Assembly: GCA_031290935.1 (NCBI GenBank)
Contig: JAISLK010000037.1
Span: 84,492-148,491 of the forward strand
From: Prevotellaceae bacterium
GTDB lineage: Bacteria > Bacteroidota > Bacteroidia > Bacteroidales > UBA932
Direction: 5' to 3'
DNA: 64,000 nucleotides
Below, piece by piece: positions 10,259 to 64,000 of the stretch (the first letter of the stretch is position 1; every line of letters starts with the position of its first letter). The notes beneath the pieces are model-generated. The model searched no databases. It saw only the letters and a list, made by a program, of their open reading frames with translations, and was not told the DNA's origin. Position numbers and translations under genes: made by a program.

Positions 10259-11545
10259 ATGACCAAAGTCCGTTTCTACCTGCGAAAACACAACACTATG
10301 AATGTAACAAGTATTTTTATGTCAATCTATTTCGGGGCTTCCAAATGGAATACAAATCTCAAAAAGTACCTTCCCCTCAAATACAGTATCGGTGAAAGCA
10401 TATCGCCCGCGCACTGGGACAAGAAAAAATGCAAGGCTGTAGAGAGCGTTAACTACCCCCAATATACGTTGCTGAATATCCGGCTCCGGATACTGGAAAA
10501 TTTGGTTCATTGCTTCGTGCTGGAGTTAAAAAATAAAAATATCATACCCAGCCATAAACGACTGCGGGATATGCTGGACATTAAATTACAAAGGGTACAC
10601 GACAGGGTGGTCTGGGATCCTGTATGCTCCTTGCCCGATTTTGTCGAACAGCATATAATGCACGTCATGCACCTCAAATCGACCGGCACCATCAACCAGT
10701 ACCGCAATACCCTGCGTATATTGACGGCGTTTGCCAAAGAGACCGGCAAAAAACTGGAGTTTGAAGATATTGATTTGAAATTTCATGCCGATTTCAGGAA
10801 ATATATGCGGGCGCAGGGTTATTCCGATTCGTACCTCAGCAACCAGATAAAATTTATCCGGTTATTTATGAATGAAGCGACCGAACTGGGGTATAACAGG
10901 CAATTGATATTTAAAAGCAGAAAGTTCGGTTTTACGACGCCGGAGACAGCCAAAATATACCTCACCGAGGCCGAAATAAACAGTATTCAACAGTTGCATA
11001 TTGAAGGCAGCATCATTTTGTCGGCCACGCGGGATTTGTTTATCGTCGGCTGCCGGACAGGCTTGCGGTTCTCCGACCTTGTCCGCCTGAACCCTTCCAA
11101 TTTTAATGAAAGTGAAAAAATCCTGCGCATCACCACGCAAAAAACCAATAAGCTGGTCTATATCCCGCTGACGGCGGATGTGATGGAAATTTGCAGGAAA
11201 TACAACTATTCCCTGCCGTATGTATCCAATGGGGTATTCAACATCCATATTAAAGAGATTGCCTGCATGGCCGGCGTGGAAGAAGATGTGGAAATAACCT
11301 CTTACAAAGGACATGAAAAGAAACGCGAAATTTTTAAAAAATATAAACTGGTAAGCGCTCATACCGCCCGCCGGAGTTTTGCGACGAACGCTTACCTCGG
11401 GGAGGTGCCGACTATCGCGATTATGAGCATCACCGGGCACCAGACGGAAAAATCTTTTATGAAATATATTCGTATCGGGAGCGAAAATAATGCCCGGCAG
11501 TTACTCTCTCATCCGTACTTTTTAAAAGACTGCAAAAAGAAATAA
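10259..11545 (+). CDS. Tyrosine-type site-specific recombinase (Bacteroides integrase type with Arm-DNA-binding and SAM-like domains)
   Basis: Catalytic signature CRTGLRFSDL ... HTARRSFATNAYL ... GHQTEKSFMKYI (R..HxxR..H..Y); N-terminal Arm-binding pattern 'YFGASKWNTNLKKYLPLKYSIGESISPAHWDKKK'. Confidence 0.92.
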   Translation: MTKVRFYLRKHNTMNVTSIFMSIYFGASKWNTNLKKYLPLKYSIGESISPAHWDKKKCKAVESVNYPQYTLLNIRLRILENLVHCFVLELKNKNIIPSHKRLRDMLDIKLQRVHDRVVWDPVCSLPDFVEQHIMHVMHLKSTGTINQYRNTLRILTAFAKETGKKLEFEDIDLKFHADFRKYMRAQGYSDSYLSNQIKFIRLFMNEATELGYNRQLIFKSRKFGFTTPETAKIYLTEAEINSIQQLHIEGSIILSATRDLFIVGCRTGLRFSDLVRLNPSNFNESEKILRITTQKTNKLVYIPLTADVMEICRKYNYSLPYVSNGVFNIHIKEIACMAGVEEDVEITSYKGHEKKREIFKKYKLVSAHTARRSFATNAYLGEVPTIAIMSITGHQTEKSFMKYIRIGSENNARQLLSHPYFLKDCKKK

Positions 11546-19376: not shown

Positions 19377-19588
19377 TAGCGAAAAAAAATAATGGTGCAA
19401 AAATACTATTTTTTCCGGGAAGGGAAAGGGTCGAAGGGGCAAGGGGGATGCCGCGCCGGGGATGTACCGGCGGCGAACCTTCCCGGGAGGACATTTTTGA
19501 GGTTTTATTTATCGCCGGGGCGTGGTGTAAAACGCCCCGCGGGCGTCGTTGCACAGGCTTTTTTAATGGATTTGATACTTCCGGCAGG

Positions 19589-19828
19589 GTTGCAACAGCT
19601 GTTGCAAGTCCGTTGCATTTTTGCGACAGGGTTGCAACAAGTGTTGCAAGTCCGTCGCACTTTTGCGACAGGGTTGCAACAAGTGTTGCAAGTCCGTTGC
19701 ACTTTTGCGACAGGGTTGCAACAGTTGTTGCAAGTTCGTCACACTTTTACGACAGGGTTGCAACAGTTGTTGCAAGTCCGTCGCATTTTTGCGACAGGGT
19801 TGCAACAGTTGTTGCAACCCTGTCGCAA
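19589..19828. repeat. Tandem array, 42-bp unit, 6 units, each with two hairpin-forming dyads
   Basis: GTTGCAAC recurs at 19589, 19631, 19673, 19715, 19757 and 19799 (exact 42-bp steps). Each unit holds TTGCAAC-NNNN-GTTGCAA and GTCGCA-NNNN-TGCGAC. Confidence 0.95.
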
Positions 19829-19917
19829 ATCTGAAGCCGGGAGGAAAGGCAATACTTTTTTTGCATGGAGGAGGTATGTGCGGGTATTATTTCGTCCCTG
19901 CTTTGGTCATAAAATAG

Positions 19918-31926: not shown

Positions 31927-31999
31927 GGTGCCATAGCTCAGCAGGTAGAGCAAAGGACTGAAAATCCTTGTGTCCGCGGTTCGATTCCACGTGGCACCA
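31927..31999 (+). tRNA. tRNA-Phe (GAA)
   Basis: GGTGCCA...TGGCACC acceptor, TAGCTCAG D-arm, anticodon loop CTGAAAA, T-arm GGTTCGATTCC. Confidence 0.95.
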
Positions 32000-32012
32000 C
32001 CGGAAAAAAAAA

Positions 32013-32057: not shown

Positions 32058-32554
32058 TTTAAAATTTTAATATTATCAGTTAAAATTTTCTTAAAGAATT
32101 TGAAAGTGCAAATGTAAAAAACGTAAATGACATTACAACAAAAAAGCAATTTAAATTATTAACAAAAAATATTAATATATTATAATTCAGTATTATATTT
32201 TTTAATAACTTCGATGTTTTTTAATTAAACTTTTAAATTGATACGGATAATTTATCCAAATAAAATGGATGCAGCAAGCGTCGAGATAAACAAAAAATAT
32301 CCATGAATAATTGATACAAAAAAAACATTAATCTATTATAATCCAATATATTTTTATTTTTTTCGGTCTAATCCAATATTTTTTCTTACCGTTTTTCATA
32401 CCTCCTGCTTTTCTTTATAAACACCTATTAATATTAACTATACACGCTTTATAAAACGTGTTATTTTGCCCTTTTTATACCCAAATTCGTCCCCACCCCA
32501 TGTATATGCCTGTCTATCAAAATCAATTTTAACTGATAATATTAAAATTTTAAA
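32058..32554 (-). other. Candidate invertible promoter cassette A (OFF orientation relative to susC 33010)
   Basis: Perfect 30-bp inverted repeats TTTAAAATTTTAATATTATCAGTTAAAATT at 32058-32087 and its reverse complement at 32525-32554; no coding content; homologous along its length to 39237-39706 in opposite orientation. Confidence 0.8.
32109..32116 (-). promoter_or_regulatory. Promoter -7 element TACATTTG inside cassette A, pointing away from susC
   Basis: Minus-strand TAnnTTTG with TTTG (plus-strand CAAA 32139-32142) upstream, 22-nt spacer; a TTG at 32136-32138 gives 19 nt. Confidence 0.6.
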
Positions 32555-32658: not shown

Positions 32659-32880
32659 ACCGTTTTGCCGAAAAGCTGCATAACTTTTCCCAAAAACTGC
32701 ATGGTAATCGCCGAAAACTGCATGGTATTTGCCAAAAGCTGCATGGTAATTGCCAAAAACTGCATGGTAATCGCCAAAAACTGCATGGTAATTGCCAAAA
32801 ACTGCATAGTAATCGCCAAAAACTGCATGGTAATCGCCAAATACTGCATGGTATTTGCCGAAAACCATACCGCTTTTTCC
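32659..32880. repeat. Tandem array, 21-bp unit (AAACTGCATGGTAATYGCCAA), about 10 units
   Basis: CTGCATGGTA recurs in 21-bp steps; outermost units degenerate; lies between cassette A and susC. Confidence 0.93.
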
Positions 32881-33009: not shown

Positions 33010-36000
33010 ATGAAATTAAACAAAATCAAGAGAACGGGACACAGGCTTTTACGAAAAACCTGCCTTCTCGCAGGCGTATGCTTGCTGACGATGTTGGGCT
33101 TTACTCCCGTAAATGCGCAACAGCAAAGTAAAACCATCATTGGCACGGTGGTGGACAAAAGCGGGGAACCGATGGTAGGCGCCGCCGTTGTCGTGAAAGG
33201 AACGACAAAGGCTGTGGCTACCGACGTGGACGGGAAATTTTCCCTCTCCGTGTCTGAAGGAGATGTGTTGACGGTATCGTTTATCGGTTACACCACCAAG
33301 AACGTTACGGTAAGCGCGGCAAACACTTTAACCGTTACGCTCGAAGAAAACGCACAGATGCTGGACGAAATTGAAATCACGGCAGAGTTCGGTATGAAGC
33401 GCGTCGCGCGGTCTATCGGGTCGTCCGTGCAAAACGTGAAAGCCGCGGACATTATTGAATCTGGGCGCGACAATTTCATTTCCGCCTTGCAGGGGCGCGT
33501 AGCGGGGATGAACGTTATTTCCAGCGGCGGTGCGCCGGGCGCTTCCAACACTGTTATCCTGCGAAGCCTGACTTCTATTTCAGGGAACAACCAACCGCTC
33601 TATGTTGTAGACGGTATCCCGATGAATAACTCGTCATTCAGCGCATCATCAGGATTTGCCAGAGCCGACGTTTATTCATCCCGCTACCTTGACTTTTCGT
33701 CGCGTGGCGATGACTTCAACCCGGAAGACATCGAATCCATGACTATCTTGAAAGGCGCAGCTGCCGCCGCCCTCTACGGGTCTAACGCATCGAACGGCGC
33801 AATTATCATCACTACAAAAAAAGGTGCGCCCGGAAAAGGAAAAGTATCCTATAGCAACTCTTTCCGCTGGGATTCGGCGTATGGCTATCCCGAATTACAG
33901 GATAAATATGCCAACGGCGGCTACGGGGCTACCAGTTATTATAATCTTAGCCGGTTTGGCGGCCTTTATCCCGAAGGCACTACACTATATGATAATGTGG
34001 CGGCCATCTTGCAAACAGGATTTACGAGCAAACACAACATCGCCGTAGAAGCCGGAACAGCCAGTACAACCATCCGCGCCGCCGCTTCCTTCCTTGACCA
34101 AACAGGGGTAGTTAAAACAACGGATTATGGCCGCACCAGTATTTCCTTATCCGGTAAGTCGGAAATTACTAAATGGCTAAAAATGGAAGCATCCATGCAA
34201 TATGCCTCTACCACTAATACGAAAGTGCAAAAAGGATCCAGTGGGCCACTGCGTTGGGCGATGCGCTGGCCCATGGTGGACGACATGTCGAATTATCTGG
34301 CTCCCGACGGCATGCACATGCGTTATCCGGAACGGTATGTGGATACAGACTTATATAATCCAATATTCGGCATGAACAAAAATAAATTTTACGACGAATC
34401 CGACCGTATTATAGCCAATGCCGTAGTGATTGTTACCCCTACGAAAAATACTTTCCTCCGCGCACAGGCAGGCTGGGACGTAGGCGCACAAACGTTCGAA
34501 ACATCGGAACACCCCTATTTTACCACTAATAACTATAACGTGCTTCCCGGAAACGGCGGCGTATATAACTTGTCGAAATCAAATTTTTCAGACCCCGCAA
34601 TGAATATTCTTGCCGGTTATAACGACAGTTTCTTCCAGGACAAATTGACCGTTTCGGCGCAGGTAGGATACCACCAGCTAGAAAACGGCGTTACCCGCTT
34701 ATCTACCTACGGAACTAAATTTGCTGTCGTGGATTTGCAATCTATCAATAACTGCGACCCTACAACTGTTTCTTCAAAGAAAAGGGCTTCCAAACGCAGG
34801 ATACAGGCTATTTCGGCGCAGGCGGAAGTCGGGTGGAATAATATGGCCTTCCTGACTTTCCGTGCCCGTAACGACTGGTCTTCTACACTGCCGAAAGACA
34901 ATAATTCTTATTTCTATCCGGCGTTGGAAGGCGCTTTTGTGGCTACCGAATTGCCGTTCCTGAAAGAAAACAAATATGTAACCTACCTGAAACTGCGCGG
35001 CGCAATAGCGCAGGTTGGTAAAGACGCCGGCCCGCTCGAAATCAATCCCGAACTGGAGCCGACGCAACAATCGGGCGGCGGTTATAGATATGGATGGACA
35101 GGGCCGAACCTGGACTTGCGCCCGGAAATGACCACCTCCTGGGAAGCCGGATTTGAAGGACGGTTCTTTAATGACCGGGTCGTAGCGGATTTTACCTATT
35201 TTAATACGCGTTGTGAAGACCAGATAGTAAAAGAATTCCGTATGAGTTATGCTGGCGGGTTTGTATTAAACACCCAAAATATGGGTACCTTTGAAACCTG
35301 GGGATGGGAAGCGCATATTGACGGCGATATTTTCAACACCAACGGCTTCCGTTGGAATATCGGCCTAAACCTTTCGCACACCGGTTCGGAAGTAATAAGT
35401 ATGCCCGTACCGGAATATTATGACGCTTATACCAACGGCAACACTGCCGGTATTCGTAACGGCGTAATGGTCGGCTACCCGGTAACTACCGTAACGGGAA
35501 CTGACTTTCAACGCAACGACAAAGGAGAGGTGCTGATAGATCCGAGCACCGGCATACCGCTCGTTTCCTCCGAATGGACAATGCTTGCCGACCGGGAACC
35601 CAAAGTCCGTTTAGGTTTTAATACGGTTCTTTCCTATAAAGGCTTCCGGTTATCGGCTATGTTTGCCGGAAAGTTAGGAGCAAATGTAGTAAATGGTACT
35701 AAACGGGAAATGATGTCCAGTGGGTTGAGTTGGGAATCGGTAGATTTCCGCGAACGCGGTCCGGTAGTATTTAATGGCGTATTGAAAGACGGTAATGAAA
35801 ACAGCGACCACCCGACGCCTAATATCTTGTCGGTAACGTATGGCGATTATAGCGCATCCATTTATGCCGGAGCAGCAGCAAACTGGATAGAAAAAAATGT
35901 ACACTACATCCGGTTGCAGGAACTCCGCTTTTCCTATACGATTCCTACGAACTACTTGAAAAAATTCCTTAATGGATTCGTCAGTTATGCCAGCGTTTTC

Positions 36001-36165
36001 GTTTGCGGGAACGACCTCTTTACCATCACCAATTATTCCGGTATTGACGCTGTGGGGAATACCCTGTCAGCTTCTGCCGGCGGTACGGGCGGCGAAGGCT
36101 ATGACACATGGGCTATACCCAACCCGCGCGGCCTGTCGTTTGGCGTTAGTTTAACCTTTAATTAA
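33010..36165 (+). CDS. SusC/RagA family TonB-linked outer membrane protein
   Basis: 'IIGTVVDKSGEPMVGAAVVVKGTTKAVATDVDGKFSLSV', 'SISGNNQPLYVVDGIPMNN', 'IESMTILKGAAAAALYGSNASNGAIIITTKKG'. Confidence 0.95.
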   Translation: MKLNKIKRTGHRLLRKTCLLAGVCLLTMLGFTPVNAQQQSKTIIGTVVDKSGEPMVGAAVVVKGTTKAVATDVDGKFSLSVSEGDVLTVSFIGYTTKNVTVSAANTLTVTLEENAQMLDEIEITAEFGMKRVARSIGSSVQNVKAADIIESGRDNFISALQGRVAGMNVISSGGAPGASNTVILRSLTSISGNNQPLYVVDGIPMNNSSFSASSGFARADVYSSRYLDFSSRGDDFNPEDIESMTILKGAAAAALYGSNASNGAIIITTKKGAPGKGKVSYSNSFRWDSAYGYPELQDKYANGGYGATSYYNLSRFGGLYPEGTTLYDNVAAILQTGFTSKHNIAVEAGTASTTIRAAASFLDQTGVVKTTDYGRTSISLSGKSEITKWLKMEASMQYASTTNTKVQKGSSGPLRWAMRWPMVDDMSNYLAPDGMHMRYPERYVDTDLYNPIFGMNKNKFYDESDRIIANAVVIVTPTKNTFLRAQAGWDVGAQTFETSEHPYFTTNNYNVLPGNGGVYNLSKSNFSDPAMNILAGYNDSFFQDKLTVSAQVGYHQLENGVTRLSTYGTKFAVVDLQSINNCDPTTVSSKKRASKRRIQAISAQAEVGWNNMAFLTFRARNDWSSTLPKDNNSYFYPALEGAFVATELPFLKENKYVTYLKLRGAIAQVGKDAGPLEINPELEPTQQSGGGYRYGWTGPNLDLRPEMTTSWEAGFEGRFFNDRVVADFTYFNTRCEDQIVKEFRMSYAGGFVLNTQNMGTFETWGWEAHIDGDIFNTNGFRWNIGLNLSHTGSEVISMPVPEYYDAYTNGNTAGIRNGVMVGYPVTTVTGTDFQRNDKGEVLIDPSTGIPLVSSEWTMLADREPKVRLGFNTVLSYKGFRLSAMFAGKLGANVVNGTKREMMSSGLSWESVDFRERGPVVFNGVLKDGNENSDHPTPNILSVTYGDYSASIYAGAAANWIEKNVHYIRLQELRFSYTIPTNYLKKFLNGFVSYASVFVCGNDLFTITNYSGIDAVGNTLSASAGGTGGEGYDTWAIPNPRGLSFGVSLTFN

Positions 36166-36177
36166 AACACAATAATT

Positions 36178-38094
36178 ATGAAAAAAATAACAATAATAAC
36201 GTTTTTAACTGTCTTATTCTCGGTTACAAGCTGTGAAAAATATTTGGATGTCAATAAAAATATTGACGCCCCTGACCGTATAGATAGCTACTTGTACCTT
36301 TCCGGTATTTTACAGTCCTATCAGGATATTTATAATGATTTGCATGCAATAGCCCCCATGATAGAAATGTGGGGTACTACCAATGCAAATTATACTCCTT
36401 TTGCCAATCATTTCTACTATAAAAGTTCGGACGTTGGCGGAGTAGTTTGGCGTACGGTTTACTGGGGACAGGGAATGAACCTGGAGAACCTCATCAATCA
36501 GTCTATAGCGGCCGAAGAATGGACGCTGGTGGGTATCGGGTATGCTATCAAATCCTTTAGTTGGGATATGCTTACGAAATTATATGCCGATGTGCCCTTA
36601 AAGCAAGCCTTCAGTACCGGACGGACGATATATGATTACGATTACCAAAATGAAATCTACACGCAAGTACGCGCATGGGCGCGGGAGGCCATTAAGTATT
36701 TGGAAATGGACGATAAGACCAGTTACGGCTCTAAATTAACCGACCATGACTGGATATACAAAGGCGACAAGGCAAAATGGATCAAGTTTGCCTACGCAGT
36801 GATTGTGCGAAATCTGGCCTCATTGTCCAACAAGACCGGTTTTGTAACGCAGTATGCTGACGAATTGATCGAATGCGCCGGGAAATCTTTCCAGTCGGCA
36901 GATGACGACGCGCGGGTAGGGGTGTCCGGCGGCTCCCAGTCCGTACCTTATAGCGGATTCAATAACTTTTGGGGAACTGCCAGGAATAATCTCGGGCAAA
37001 CTTCGTTTCAACACGACTATGCTGTGCAGGTAATGACCGGCACTGTGCCTGTATATGAGGCTGACGGAAATAGAAAAAAAGTTGTGATACCTCCTACGCA
37101 TGAGGATACGCTTTATTACGCCTACTATCCGTATGAATTAGTTCCCCAACAAATTATTTGCGACACGTCGAAAGCGACAGGACATTTTGACCCCCGTGTA
37201 ATAGCCAAACTTAGTACGACAACAAACCAGTATATGTACATAGATAATGCCGACAGCGTAAAAGCCTATAAATATTATGGAGCGCGGAGATCGACCGAAC
37301 GCATCAACCCCATTGACGCCGGCGGCGTACCCACTTTTTTTGGCCGAGATGCCGCCGTAAAAAACGGTTCAACAGCTCCGCCTAATGATGGAAAAGGGCG
37401 TTGGATATATCACGACGAAGCGCCGTATATCCTGACGACTTGCGCCGAAATAAAATTCTGCCTGGCGGAAGCCTATTGGAAAAAGGGGCAAAAGGGATTG
37501 GCTTACGAAGCCTTTAAAGAAGGCGTAAAAGCAGATATTGCCTTTACCGCCGGGCAACTTCGGCCGGGAGCCAAAGGCCAGGAAGTCGGTGGCGACAAAG
37601 TTACCGCAGCAGTGTTCAATACCCTTGCCAACGAATATACGGCAGGGCCTTATGTAGATGGATTGGGCGAAGCCAATTTAACCCTTTCGCATATTATGAT
37701 GCAAAAATGGGTAGCCCTTTACCCTTGGGGCGCTATGGAAGCATGGGTGGACATGCGCAAATACCATTATGATATTGCCTATACCGGCAATTATCCGACA
37801 CTGGGCAATGGCTGGGATGCTACAAGGCGTATCCAGCATAAAGCAGATGATGCCCAAGACAGGCTGTATAAAGGTTTTTACCTGGGAGCGGCAGAGCGAT
37901 TGGAATTTCGTGATGCCCCTTACAATATCGAGAATGAAGGTTCTCCTTGCTACCGCTTGCGTCCGCGCTATAATTCGGAATATATCTGGAATATTCCTTC
38001 GCTGGAAAAATTAAAACCCATTGCCGGCACAGCTCCTAATTATCAATGTTCGATACCCTGGTTTGCCTACCCGGGAGATTATCCTGCTAACTAA
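36178..38094 (+). CDS. SusD-like lipoprotein (SusD/RagB superfamily)
   Basis: 'SVTSCEKYLDVNKNIDAPDRIDSYLYLSGILQSYQDIY'; follows susC; 'LAEAYWKKGQKGLAYEAFKEGVKADI'. Confidence 0.88.
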   Translation: MKKITIITFLTVLFSVTSCEKYLDVNKNIDAPDRIDSYLYLSGILQSYQDIYNDLHAIAPMIEMWGTTNANYTPFANHFYYKSSDVGGVVWRTVYWGQGMNLENLINQSIAAEEWTLVGIGYAIKSFSWDMLTKLYADVPLKQAFSTGRTIYDYDYQNEIYTQVRAWAREAIKYLEMDDKTSYGSKLTDHDWIYKGDKAKWIKFAYAVIVRNLASLSNKTGFVTQYADELIECAGKSFQSADDDARVGVSGGSQSVPYSGFNNFWGTARNNLGQTSFQHDYAVQVMTGTVPVYEADGNRKKVVIPPTHEDTLYYAYYPYELVPQQIICDTSKATGHFDPRVIAKLSTTTNQYMYIDNADSVKAYKYYGARRSTERINPIDAGGVPTFFGRDAAVKNGSTAPPNDGKGRWIYHDEAPYILTTCAEIKFCLAEAYWKKGQKGLAYEAFKEGVKADIAFTAGQLRPGAKGQEVGGDKVTAAVFNTLANEYTAGPYVDGLGEANLTLSHIMMQKWVALYPWGAMEAWVDMRKYHYDIAYTGNYPTLGNGWDATRRIQHKADDAQDRLYKGFYLGAAERLEFRDAPYNIENEGSPCYRLRPRYNSEYIWNIPSLEKLKPIAGTAPNYQCSIPWFAYPGDYPAN

Positions 38095-38120: not shown

Positions 38121-39131
38121 ATGAAACAAATTAAATATATAAATTTATTGTTATTGATTATGTTTTTCGCCTCTTGCGAAAAACATGTAGTAGACTACGA
38201 CACCTATACGTTAACGGAAAATACGGCGGAATACCAGTTACATTATTTTGTACCTGTTCCTTCTGCAGCCGCGAATAACATCTATAAAGTAGAAGTTAAT
38301 GATGATGTCGTTACTACTAATGCTGCTACGTTGGTTACTTACAACGCTATTCCCAGCGGCGGCGTAGGCCGGTTCGCTACTGTGGCTCCCGGTACAGTAA
38401 ACATAAAGTTGTATCAACTGACCAATCCAAGTTTACCATACAGCGATGCTAATTTAACTAAAGTATACGACCAGAACACGCAACTACAAGGCGGTAAAAA
38501 GCAGAATATTTTTGTATATGATTTTACTCAACCGCCGATTGTTTTTGATAACGGGTACCCTTATATATCCGACCGCCGGCCGTATGATACGGATACCATT
38601 GCGTATGTAAAATTCTACAATTTTATGTTTGAAACCACGGACGTTCCTACAACCATGAAATTGCAGTACCAGTACCAATATATTTTGCACCCGCTTTATA
38701 CCCTCGAAGACGCCCAAAAAGGTGTTATACCCGAAGGTAAAAAAGTAGGAGATGCAACCGGAGATACCAAACGAAGCGCATGGCTCAATATTGGCAACCC
38801 GCTTGCTTTTGGTGAAACAACCGGATGGCAAGAGGTAGTGGTCAAAAAAACAAGTTACATTGCACAGGGCTCGGCAACCATTTATTATCGGATTGTAGTT
38901 TCTGCTGAAAATGGCGGAGTACCCGGCGTTACTGTAATGGATAGCAATGATTGGGTTTTGCGGGCACGGACGAATGCCAGCAATGTAAATACGTACAATG
39001 CTTATTCTTATAGCACTTCACTAACAATTGGGCGAAGACAACACCACACGATAGGCGGCCAGCGGGCAGGGGGCGACATTCCTGGTGTTGCTGATCCGAT
39101 AATCGGGATCAAACTTTTTACAGCACTCTAA
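38121..39131 (+). CDS. SusCD-operon lipoprotein, DUF4397-like
   Basis: Lipobox FFASCEKHVVDYD; 'LHYFVPVPSAAANNIYKVEVND..GGVGRFATVAPGTVNIKLYQ'. Confidence 0.55.
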   Translation: MKQIKYINLLLLIMFFASCEKHVVDYDTYTLTENTAEYQLHYFVPVPSAAANNIYKVEVNDDVVTTNAATLVTYNAIPSGGVGRFATVAPGTVNIKLYQLTNPSLPYSDANLTKVYDQNTQLQGGKKQNIFVYDFTQPPIVFDNGYPYISDRRPYDTDTIAYVKFYNFMFETTDVPTTMKLQYQYQYILHPLYTLEDAQKGVIPEGKKVGDATGDTKRSAWLNIGNPLAFGETTGWQEVVVKKTSYIAQGSATIYYRIVVSAENGGVPGVTVMDSNDWVLRARTNASNVNTYNAYSYSTSLTIGRRQHHTIGGQRAGGDIPGVADPIIGIKLFTAL

Positions 39132-39151
39132 TTCCATAGAGTTAATAAATA

Positions 39152-39205
39152 AATAATTATAACAAAGAAGCCGTCCGAAAGGACGGCTTCTTTGTTATAA
39201 TTATT
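39152..39205. terminator. 25-bp perfect-stem terminator hairpin, GAAA loop
   Basis: AATAATTATAACAAAGAAGCCGTCC-GAAA-GGACGGCTTCTTTGTTATAATTATT. Confidence 0.9.
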
Positions 39206-39236
39206 TGATTATCTCAAGTGTGTTTATTTGATTAAA

Positions 39237-39706
39237 ATTTTAATATACTCAGTTAAAATTGATTTTGATAGACAGGCATATACATGGGGTGGGGACGAAT
39301 TTGGGTATAAAAAGGGCAAAATAACATGTTTTATGAAGCATGTATAGTTAATATTAACAAGTATTTATAAAGAAAAATAGGAGGTGTGAAAACCGGTAAG
39401 AAAAAATATTGTATTAGACCGAAAAAAATAAAAACATATTGAATTATAACATATTAATATTTTTTACAACAATGATTTTTTGTTTTTTTCGATACCCGTT
39501 GCATCCATTTTCGACGAATTAATTTTCCGCATCAATTTAAAAATTTAATAAAAAATAGCAAAATTATAAAAAAATGCAGCATTGAATTATAACTTATTAA
39601 TGTTTTTGTTAATAATTTTGGTTGATTTTTTGCTGTAATTTCATTAAGATTTTTTATATTTGCATTAACAAATTTAAAACAAAATTTTAACTGAGTATAT
39701 TAAAAT
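39237..39706 (+). other. Candidate invertible promoter cassette B (ON orientation relative to susC 39787)
   Basis: Perfect 24-bp inverted repeats ATTTTAATATACTCAGTTAAAATT at 39237-39260 and its reverse complement at 39683-39706; homologous to cassette A in inverse orientation. Confidence 0.8.
39655..39662 (+). promoter_or_regulatory. Promoter -7 element TATATTTG inside cassette B, pointing toward susC
   Basis: TAnnTTTG with TTTG at 39629-39632 upstream, same 22-nt spacer as in cassette A. Confidence 0.65.
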
Positions 39707-39786
39707 GTAAATTCAAAAATTAATTAAAAGATTATCAAGGCTATATAAGTTTAAAATTTTATTTATTAACCCAACTTAAATTATCT

Positions 39787-42700
39787 ATGAATTTGAAAAA
39801 ATCAAAAAAATCAAGCAGCAGCTTACTTTACAGAGCTTGCCTTGTCGCAGGCGCATGCCTGTGTTGGATGTGCAGCCTTACGTTGGCAAATGCACAACAG
39901 CAAACAAAAACATTGGCCGGCACAGTGGTCGATGCAAAAGGAGAAACCGTTGTCGGGGCATCCATTTCCGAAAGGGGAACGACGAATGCCGTGATGACGG
40001 ATGTAGATGGGAAATTTTCCATTACCGTACGGGAAGGCGCAACCTTAAACGTTTCTTTTTTGGGTTACAAAACGCAATCGTATGTGGTGGGCGCAGCTAA
40101 TTCTGCTCGGATAGTATTGCAGGAAGACAGCAAAGTGCTGGACGAAGTAGTAGTAGTCGGCTACGGTATGCAGCGGAAAGAAAACCTGACCGGCGCCGTA
40201 GTATCGGTGGATGTGGACAAAACCTTAGCCAGCCGTCCTATAGCCGACGTCGGGCGCGGATTACAGGGCTCCGTCCCGGGGTTGTCGGTGGTAGTGGCCA
40301 GCGGTGAAATCGGTTCCGACCCGATTATGAAAATTCGCGGGCAGGTTGCTTCTTTAAACGGAAGTTCCACACCGCTAATACTGATGGATAATGTCGAAAT
40401 CCCCAGCATTCAGGTGGTCAATCCTGACGACATTGAATCTATTTCCGTATTAAAAGACGCCGCATCGGCTTCTATTTACGGTTCTAAAGGCGCATTTGGA
40501 GTTATTTTGATAACGACCAAAAAAGGCGCAAGAACAGAATCTGTGTCGGTAACTTATTCGGCCAATTTCTCATGGCAGAACAGGGCAAAAGAATTAAACA
40601 TGGCAACCATAGACGGGTTGCAATATACCCTGGATGCGGCTCGTAGCCGTAACCCCGAAAATCCGGGTACCGGCGTAGTCGGCAATATGTGGCGAATAAA
40701 TGAAGAAAGCCTTAAGAAAGCAAGAAAATGGGTAGAAACGTACGGCAGTACGGTGAAGCCGACGGACCCTGTGGTATATAACAGGGACTGGTATATAGAC
40801 CCGGCTTTTGGCCCTGCGTATAAATTGGGGATACGTACCTACAATTCAGTGGACGCCTTAGTAAAGGAATGGACGCCGACCATGACGCACAACTTGTCTC
40901 TCAACGGACGGTCGGGTAAAACAACTTACCATATCGGCTTAGGCTTTTTGGAACAAACCGGAATGACAAAACCCGCCAAACATGATGATTTCAAACGCTA
41001 CAATGCATCCATCAATGTGTCAACAGAAGTGAATAAATATTTGACATTGCATGGAGGCGCTATTTATTCCGACCGGACTAAACGTTATCCCAGTATCGGC
41101 TCTACCTATACAGACCCGTGGTTATATGCCTATCGTTGGGGCAGTTTGATGCCTATCGGCGTGGTAGACCAGTTTGGCGACCAGATAAGAAACCCTGCGT
41201 ATGAACTGGCCGAAACAACCACTTCAAGCAAGCGCAATATTTATGTGAATATAAATTTGGGCGCTACCGTTAATTTTACAAAAGACTGGAATCTTCAATT
41301 TGACTACACGCATGTTACAAGAGGAGATATAACAGAAACATCTATCCCGACTTTTGCCGGTGGCGATGCATGGTATGGAGCAGTAGAATGGCTGGACGAA
41401 AACGGCAACCAGGTTTTTGTGGACGAACAAGGGAACATAACGGGCACAGGAGGCGTACCTGCCTACAGGTTTAGTCCGATAGAATGGAATGCGTCCGGTT
41501 CGTCGGGAAGTTCCATTTCCCGCACTTCAAGGGCGACGGATAATAATACGTTCAACATATATACCACTTACAACCTTAAATTAGCCGAACAGCATGTATT
41601 TAAGGTTATGGCTGGGATGAACAACGTAACTAACCAGTGGAAACAGCATGCTGCCACGCGGGGTACATTAACTAATTATGAAAACCCGCAGTTTAATTTT
41701 GCTACCGGCGTGCAGGAAGTGGCTGGAGATGCAAACTGGGATTCCCAGTTAGGTTTTTTCGGACGCCTCAATTATGCGTTTGACAATAGATATTTAGTGG
41801 AAGCCAATTTGCGTTATGACGGTTCTTCAAAGTTTCCTACAGATTTGCAATGGGAATGGTTTCCTTCTTTTTCAGCAGGATGGATACTAACTAATGAAGA
41901 ATTTATGAAGCCGGTAGAATCGGTATTGAGTTTTAGTAAAATAAGAGCGTCGTGGGGAAGCATTGGCGACCAGTCGGTATCCAACAGTCTCTATATTCCT
42001 TCCATAGCCAGCTATGAATCGCTGTGGCTGGGGGCTGATGGAATATATTCGGCTTACAGGACACCGACGGCCGTTTCACAGGATATTAAATGGCAGCGTA
42101 TAGAAACTTTGGATATAGGCGTTGATTTGCGGTTTTTCGACAACATACTGGGCGCTTCTTTTGACTGGTTCAGGCGCGATACAAAGGATATGATTATCGG
42201 CGGCGATACCGTGCCATATGTATTTGGTGCGAGCGCACCACAGGGTAATTACGGCAACCTGCGCACCAACGGTTGGGAAATAGCGTTGGACTTCCATTAC
42301 AAATTTAGCAACGGGTTAGGCGTAAATGCGCTGGCAATGTTGGCAGACGCGACTTCTCGTGTAACGAAAGGCGCCGATTACCTGACGCCATGGGAAGACA
42401 GGTCTATCGGTTCTAACTGGTCCACAGATGCGCGTTACGGCGATATTTGGGGTTACGTAACCGACCGGCTGTACCAGGAAGAAGATTTTATACGCGGCGC
42501 CGCCGGCAACTTACAGAAAACGACGATTATTATTAACGGTACAGCTAAAGATTCGTACGAATTGGCAGGCAGCAACCCCGTCTATCAAACTTATTTGGAA
42601 GACGGCAACGGCGTAGCGATATTCCGCCCCGGCGATGTAAAATTTGTAGATTTGAATGGCGACGGGTACATCACCCCCGGACGCGGCACTTTCGGCGATC

Positions 42701-43269
42701 CGGGCGACCGGAAAGTTATTGGGAATACGACGCCGCGCTACGAATACGGTTTCCGCCTCGGTGCGGATTACAAGGGATTTGACGTTTCCGTATTTCTACA
42801 GGGTGTAGGTAGCCGGCAAATATGGGGATCGGGGCAATTGGCTATTCCCGGTTATCATGCCTCCGACGGCGCCATGCCGCAAGCAATAGCCGGAGATTAC
42901 TGGCGTCCCGACCGGACTGGTGCTTTTTATCCCCGTGCATGGGATAATGGCGGCGAGAATACCAATTACAGCCTCCAGAGACAAACTCGATACTTGTTGG
43001 ATATGGCTTATATGAGGATAAAAAACATTACCTTTGGCTATACGGTACCGGAAAAGTTATTGAAAAAAATCTACCTCTCGAATGCCCGCATTTATGTGTC
43101 GCTGGAGAACTTCTTTACATTCGACAATCTCAGGGGATTGCCCATTGACCCGGAAGTCATTTCTGGATATTCCATGTTTAGAACAGATAACGAAGCCAGC
43201 ATGGGACGTACTGGAGTAGGTACGCCGATGTTTAAATCGGCTTCTGTGGGCGTACAATTAAGTTTTTAA
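39787..43269 (+). CDS. SusC/RagA family TonB-linked outer membrane protein
   Basis: 'LAGTVVDAKGETVVGASISERGTTNAVMTDVDGKFSITV', 'VVVVGYGMQRKENLTGAVVSV', 'DIESISVLKDAASASIYGSKGAFGVILITTKKG'. Confidence 0.96.
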   Translation: MNLKKSKKSSSSLLYRACLVAGACLCWMCSLTLANAQQQTKTLAGTVVDAKGETVVGASISERGTTNAVMTDVDGKFSITVREGATLNVSFLGYKTQSYVVGAANSARIVLQEDSKVLDEVVVVGYGMQRKENLTGAVVSVDVDKTLASRPIADVGRGLQGSVPGLSVVVASGEIGSDPIMKIRGQVASLNGSSTPLILMDNVEIPSIQVVNPDDIESISVLKDAASASIYGSKGAFGVILITTKKGARTESVSVTYSANFSWQNRAKELNMATIDGLQYTLDAARSRNPENPGTGVVGNMWRINEESLKKARKWVETYGSTVKPTDPVVYNRDWYIDPAFGPAYKLGIRTYNSVDALVKEWTPTMTHNLSLNGRSGKTTYHIGLGFLEQTGMTKPAKHDDFKRYNASINVSTEVNKYLTLHGGAIYSDRTKRYPSIGSTYTDPWLYAYRWGSLMPIGVVDQFGDQIRNPAYELAETTTSSKRNIYVNINLGATVNFTKDWNLQFDYTHVTRGDITETSIPTFAGGDAWYGAVEWLDENGNQVFVDEQGNITGTGGVPAYRFSPIEWNASGSSGSSISRTSRATDNNTFNIYTTYNLKLAEQHVFKVMAGMNNVTNQWKQHAATRGTLTNYENPQFNFATGVQEVAGDANWDSQLGFFGRLNYAFDNRYLVEANLRYDGSSKFPTDLQWEWFPSFSAGWILTNEEFMKPVESVLSFSKIRASWGSIGDQSVSNSLYIPSIASYESLWLGADGIYSAYRTPTAVSQDIKWQRIETLDIGVDLRFFDNILGASFDWFRRDTKDMIIGGDTVPYVFGASAPQGNYGNLRTNGWEIALDFHYKFSNGLGVNALAMLADATSRVTKGADYLTPWEDRSIGSNWSTDARYGDIWGYVTDRLYQEEDFIRGAAGNLQKTTIIINGTAKDSYELAGSNPVYQTYLEDGNGVAIFRPGDVKFVDLNGDGYITPGRGTFGDPGDRKVIGNTTPRYEYGFRLGADYKGFDVSVFLQGVGSRQIWGSGQLAIPGYHASDGAMPQAIAGDYWRPDRTGAFYPRAWDNGGENTNYSLQRQTRYLLDMAYMRIKNITFGYTVPEKLLKKIYLSNARIYVSLENFFTFDNLRGLPIDPEVISGYSMFRTDNEASMGRTGVGTPMFKSASVGVQLSF

Positions 43270-63681: not shown

Positions 63682-64000
63682 AAATGTTCCATACTAAGAA
63701 GCAAATGTTCGACACTAAGAAGCAAATGTTCGGCACTAAGAAGCAAATGTTCGGCACTAAGAAGCAAATGTTCGATACTAAGAAGCAAATGTTCGATACT
63801 AAGAAGCAAATGTTCGATACTAAGAAGCAATTATTCCATACTAAGAAGCAAATGTTCGGCACTAAGAAGCAAATGTTCGATACTAAGAAGCAAATGTTCG
63901 GCACTAAGAAGCAAATGTTCGACACTAAGAAGCAAATGTTCGACACTAAGAAGCAAATGTTCGACACTAAGAAGCAAATGTTCGACACTAAGAAGCAAAT
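63682..64000. repeat. Tandem array, 21-bp unit (TTCGACACTAAGAAGCAAATG), about 15 units, truncated by the window edge
   Basis: ACTAAGAAGCAAATGTTC recurs every 21 bp; only the GAC/GGC/GAT/CAT triplet varies apart from one divergent unit. Confidence 0.96.

Follow-up and report, generated by a model that had tools for sequence, protein, structure and literature searches.

The window analysed here, a stretch of 64 kb on contig 37 (JAISLK010000037.1) of a Prevotellaceae bacterium (GCA_031290935.1; genome of 1.64 Mb, 63% complete), contains two short intergenic segments, termed cassettes A and B, each of which is flanked by inverted repeats. Cassette A (32058-32554) is located between a tRNA-Phe gene (31927-32001, plus strand) and an operon that encodes a SusC/RagA family TonB-linked transporter (33010-36165, plus strand; TIGR04056 with 616.7 bits, and Pfam), a SusD-like lipoprotein (36178-38094, plus strand; PF12771) and a predicted surface lipoprotein of 336 amino acids without Pfam match (38121-39131, plus strand). 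Cassette B (39231-39712) lies between the end of this operon, which is marked by a terminator-like hairpin at positions 39145-39212, and a second susC gene specifying another SusC/RagA family transporter (39787-43269, plus strand; TIGR04056 with 793.4 bits). Runs of a 21-bp tandem repeat extend over positions 32690-32865, between cassette A and its susC gene, and over positions 63682-64000. Tandem-repeat runs were likewise noted at L114 (10203-10547) and L122 (2902-3270), and repetitive open reading frames in similar positions downstream of congener cassettes suggested like repeats with unrelated unit sequences. A 42-bp tandem repeat of 5.5 copies, with abundant TTGCAAC palindromes, is present at positions 19572-19835.

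The motif ATTTTAATATNNTCAGTTAAAATT has exactly four matches in the 64-kb window (32064-32087 and 39237-39260 on the plus strand, 32525-32548 and 39683-39706 on the minus strand); none is expected by chance, and the motif never occurred in shuffled sequences. These matches are part of the inverted repeats of both cassettes. The repeats of cassette A (32058-32087, plus strand, and 32525-32554, minus strand) are identical over 30 bp and spaced by 437 bp, and those of cassette B (39231-39260, plus strand, and 39683-39712, minus strand) are identical over 24 bp and spaced by 422 bp, with few bases differing outside these 24 bp. Within each repeat, near-palindromic arms of the type TTTAA...TTAAA enclose a 7-bp spacer, or core, that reads ATTATCA in cassette A (32072-32078 and, on the minus strand, 32534-32540) and ATACTCA in cassette B (39245-39251 and, on the minus strand, 39692-39698). 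The first-pass annotation had stated that the two ends of each cassette are mutually identical and that the cassettes differ from each other in a central dinucleotide. This is confirmed by the four sites of the window, with TA at both ends of cassette A and AC at both ends of cassette B, and the difference falls on positions -1 and 0 of the spacer, i.e. on its exact centre.

Cassette A can be aligned with the reverse complement of cassette B over 490 bp with 83% identity, from which it follows that they are homologs in opposite orientations. A promoter -7 box matching the Bacteroidota consensus TAnnTTTG is present near the same end of each cassette: the box TACATTTG of cassette A (32109-32116, minus strand) points to the left, away from the susC gene at 33010, and the box TATATTTG of cassette B (39655-39662, plus strand) faces out of the cassette toward the susC gene at 39787. 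Judged by the direction of these boxes, cassette B would be ON and cassette A OFF, the opposite orientations being those of two homologous cassettes. About 60 bp beside one repeat (39237-39340 and 32440-32550) are identical in both cassettes, the sequences elsewhere being less alike (83% overall), which suggests recent conversion or selection at this end. A motif resembling GGACGAATTTGGG is found at that end and recurs there in many cassettes.

DNA searches detected homologs of cassettes A and B upstream of susC genes on contigs 17 and 5 of the genome analysed here, and one further homolog in the congener G004. The spacers common to both ends are ATTGTAG on contigs 17 and 5 and GTAGTAG in G004; in the cassettes on contigs 17 and 5, the nucleotides immediately adjacent to the spacer are not the same at both ends. 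A larger set of cassettes was compiled from the own genome and eight congeneric genomes by means of a pattern that left the spacer positions free, and from the upstream regions of susC genes. The pairs were selected by arms and spacing, with the spacer ignored, and the family-I arm pattern was defined on sites already seen, so that the conservation of the arms, in which the core had no part, is partly built in. A second, related arm family of the type TTGATTAA-core-TTAATCAA was found in four congeners devoid of a counterpart to the tyrosine recombinase encoded in the window; its layout is TTGATTAA[A/C]-7 bp-GTTAATCAA, with the two ends approximately 343 bp apart. These congeners were dropped as negative controls because the second arm family obeys the same rule of matched spacers. 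Searches in other families of the order yielded single pattern matches without an inverted partner, which were discarded. Altogether, 43 inverted pairs passed the selection, and the 37 pairs that match in five or more bases of the spacer were kept for the permutation test and the position profile. The spacers of the other six pairs are unrelated, mostly owing to chance pairings, with the exception of G005:C92, where a spacing of 341 bp points to a degenerate cassette with unrelated cores.

Identical 7-bp spacers are present at both ends in 34 of the 37 cassettes, which together contain 27 distinct spacers. Random re-pairing of the right ends within the arm family resulted in a mean of 3.2 and a maximum of 13 identical pairs in 100,000 trials, and the 34 identical pairs are still far above chance when counted against all 43 pairs. 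The position profile revealed three mismatches in the spacer, compared with 105.7 expected if the ends were unlinked, 19 versus 61.7 in the arms and 245 versus 241 in the flanks, which corresponds to ratios of 0.03, 0.3 and 1.0, respectively; beyond 14 bases the flanks are unrelated. At position -4, just left of the spacer, mismatches were observed in six of the 37 pairs (20.0 expected). The matched region consequently begins sharply at position -3, whereas its right edge could not be placed, since there is hardly any variation at positions +5 to +8 throughout the set. The core differs from the arms with p = 5e-7 (Fisher) and from position -4 with p = 5e-4, values that serve as guides because cassettes related by descent are not fully independent. 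The three mismatches are distributed over the pairs G007:C201, G006:C84 and G006:C47 with one each, and the pair identity of the spacer is thus a strong tendency but not absolute. Among site pairs in direct orientation that passed the same strict arm criteria, identical cores were found in 0 of 16 and 0 of 7 cases in two scans.

The same behaviour is apparent in orthologous cassettes. A syntenic ortholog of cassette A was identified in G004 (G004:C46), where the genes encoding XerD, a methyltransferase and an M16 peptidase, the tRNA-Phe gene, the cassette and susC follow in the same order. The two loci share 79% DNA identity on both sides, and both cassettes have the same OFF orientation; the spacer pairs read ATTATCA/ATTATCA in cassette A and GTAGTAG/GTAGTAG in the ortholog, i.e. 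five of the seven core bases have changed, and identically at both ends. Another cassette, present with the same flanking gene families in G003:C11, G006:C12 and G008:C117 (the second flanking protein was identified by alignment in G003 and G008 and by visual inspection in G006), carries the spacers TATTACA, TTTTATA and TCTTTAA, respectively, each matched at both ends. Further ortholog sets, compared at the start of the downstream susC gene only, behave alike. In one of them, the ends of the G007 cassette read TTTCTCA and TTTCCCA, the relatives having either T or C at this position at both ends, and the pair looks as if it had been caught between states. The first-pass annotation had proposed that all copies of the repeat be compared within and between pairs and had named a pattern of simple drift as one refuting outcome. 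The comparison over the nine genomes revealed a within-pair core identity that far exceeds that between pairs, and simple drift can be rejected, as the effect centres on the spacer and orthologs changed their spacers in concert at both ends.

The best candidate for the invertase, which would act in trans, is a tyrosine recombinase of 428 amino acids encoded at positions 10259-11545 (plus strand; PF13102 and PF00589). It comprises a SAM-like and a catalytic domain with the invariant residues R270, K295, H368, R371, H394 and Y403, which we take to be the catalytic R-K-H-R-H-Y set of tyrosine recombinases. Orthologs with 62-67% identity are encoded in G001, G002 and G007, all three of which contain family-I cassettes, and no match at E <= 1e-20 was obtained in G003, G005, G006 and G008, the genomes with the second arm family. 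An exception is G004 (80% complete), a genome with family-I cassettes in which the best match to the recombinase has 37% identity and is thus not a close copy. In the window, and likewise at the five loci of related recombinases, no cassette of the A/B kind was found beside the recombinase gene, and a search among solved structures gave no relatives of the enzyme at E <= 1e-5. With this correlative link, the 428-amino-acid enzyme is the best candidate and probably acts on the sites of cassettes A and B. No recombinase serving the second arm family could be found; in G006 (79% complete), which has dozens of second-family sites, a single PF00589 gene was detected.

Taken together, we regard cassettes A and B, with a probability of roughly 0.87, as phase-variable invertible promoters flipped by a tyrosine recombinase, probably that encoded at 10259-11545, which depends on homology over an overlap of about 7 bp. 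The recombinase would bind the near-palindromic TTTAA/TTAAA arms and, with cleavage positions placed by inference, exchange strands across the approximately 7-bp overlap between them. Since strands can be exchanged only if the two overlaps base-pair with each other, efficient inversion would be restricted to cassettes with the same overlap at both ends. Repeated exchange, through a presumed homogenising step, would preserve the match between the two ends of a cassette, and separate cassettes would diverge. Recombination of this type occurs at short stretches of sequence identity, and the overlap of phage lambda comprises 7 bp (PMC8371274). The earlier proposal that strand exchange within a pair demands matching crossover sequences thereby gains support from the 34 of 37 matched pairs, against about three expected, the enzymatic step itself being deduced.

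The exact restriction of the A/B difference to two central bases would also be expected from a serine recombinase with the TA/AC dinucleotide as its 2-bp crossover. This explanation is nevertheless improbable, since pair identity spans the whole spacer from -3 to +3, which a 2-bp crossover would not require, and outer spacer bases such as +2 and +3 differ widely from cassette to cassette but never within pairs. Alternatively, the cores might be kept equal by selection on a recombinase binding site or an encoded RNA rather than by strand-exchange homology. The cores are indeed not random, most of them having T at positions -2 and +1, but as many as 27 different cores occur between similar arms and each end matches its partner rather than a consensus, so that we consider selection of this kind very improbable. 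The matched ends might finally be relics, the arms being identical through recent duplication or copying, with too little time for divergence and no requirement imposed by recombination. Cassettes have clearly been copied around the genome, as A, B and the homologs on contigs 17 and 5 demonstrate; however, divergence within pairs is seen in the arms beside the core and in the flanks but not in the core itself, and orthologs embedded in DNA of 79% identity have changed the core identically at both ends. There is hardly any room left for this account, and homology-dependent inversion by a tyrosine recombinase remains our preferred interpretation.

Several cores are shared by cassettes of one genome, for instance by C17 and C5 and by C9, C23, C25, C30, C46 and C55. 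The core TTAGTAG was found on six contigs of the own genome, and TCTTTAA and TTAGTGA on eight contigs each in G008. A private core that insulates every cassette was therefore ruled out as a general rule. According to a hand count with non-uniform sampling, approximately 33 of 44 sites whose core is present on at least four contigs of a genome are located within 400 bp of a contig end, compared with approximately 10 of 70 sites with rarer cores (p = 9e-11). The assembly branching at shared-core sites could reflect recombination between sites of the same core or merely repeated sequence.

A promoter was clearly located inside the invertible segment only in A, B and three close homologs. In 30 of the 43 cassettes, a TAnnTTTG box is instead present immediately beyond one of the repeats and directed into the segment, which would accordingly be transcribed, and the start of a signal-peptide gene is commonly located beyond the far repeat; this pattern was noticed after the fact, and the promoters are consensus matches. 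Examples with segments of about 300 bp include L024, L075, L076, L219, L275, L277, L286, L292, L341, L344 and L345, among others. The segments typically consist of about 70% pyrimidines on one strand, a bias that was found in approximately 1% of 300-bp background windows. The strand that would be transcribed is purine-rich in 12 and pyrimidine-rich in eight of 20 assigned cases, so both orientations occur. In L341, L357 and L358 of G003, a terminator-like hairpin, CGCCGG-N4-CCGGCG-TTTTTCAT, is located 46 bases into the segment in the pyrimidine-rich direction only. From these features, most relatives of A and B resemble 5' leaders that are invertible and strand-biased more than they resemble invertible promoters, and the likeliest reading, put forward as a hypothesis, is that they would act as a termination switch like the flg leader of Clostridioides difficile. 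Promoter boxes outside both repeats and pointing inwards were noted in L346, L345, L357, L358, L369, L106, L091 and L208, and such two-sided cassettes might exert reciprocal control over the genes on both sides.

The more frequent location of shared-core sites near contig ends led to a wider reading, in which the core would serve as an address and one recombinase would operate many switches with common arms. Private cores would insulate a switch and shared cores would connect switches into exchange networks, and most switches would be strand-biased invertible leaders behind a fixed promoter, their orientation deciding whether transcription reaches the gene. We put this joint reading forward tentatively and at somewhat less than even odds. 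Its potential relevance is illustrated by cassettes A and B, which are 7 kb apart: if their cores were equal, an exchange between the two could lead to deletion or inversion of the susCD operon.

Invertible promoters are widespread among gut bacteria, but how numerous switches operated by a single enzyme are kept from recombining among themselves has, to our knowledge, rarely been addressed. The matched-core rule predicts which switches can exchange with each other and which cannot. Moreover, the crossover region could be narrowed from natural sequence variation alone to approximately 7 bp in which identity is either required or maintained, and the different cores found within one arm family form a ready-made natural collection. 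As the leader-type relatives suggest, some entries in catalogues of invertible promoters may be switches that act on transcription elongation instead.

The cassettes resemble the Tsr-type invertible regions of Bacteroides fragilis, e.g. those of Tsr0667 and Tsr19/BF2766, in that both are found in Bacteroidota and consist of promoters flanked by inverted repeats, with TAnnTTTG boxes and susC/susD targets, and in that one tyrosine recombinase serves distant sites (PMC4747536). This likeness is one of description, and the arms may or may not be related. Unlike the Tsr regions, the cassettes described here tend to have a 7-bp core of their own, and the pair rule was measured over 37 of them. The sfx sites of the Rci shufflon likewise combine a tyrosine recombinase, inversion and an arm-core-arm layout with a 7-bp core (PMC11852207). 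The shufflon sites, however, share one core and shuffle mutually, whereas the present cores are mostly private, with some groups sharing one, and a common core of the shufflon type is absent between A and B. The CTnDOT integrase IntDOT, which also originates from Bacteroidota, and Tn916-type integrases are tyrosine recombinases as well, but they tolerate unmatched overlaps and need homology of only 2 nt or 1 bp (PMC5871717). The present sites look strongly homology-dependent, and the pair rule thus sets this enzyme apart from the CTnDOT type. In the flg switch of C. difficile, Rho stops the OFF transcripts in an invertible leader (PMC7446863). As in most relatives of A and B, the invertible segment is part of the transcribed 5' leader there, although C. 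difficile belongs to another phylum and A and B carry the promoter inside the segment. The principle of such switches is already known, and what is new is the clade-wide set of private spacers together with groups of cassettes that share one spacer.
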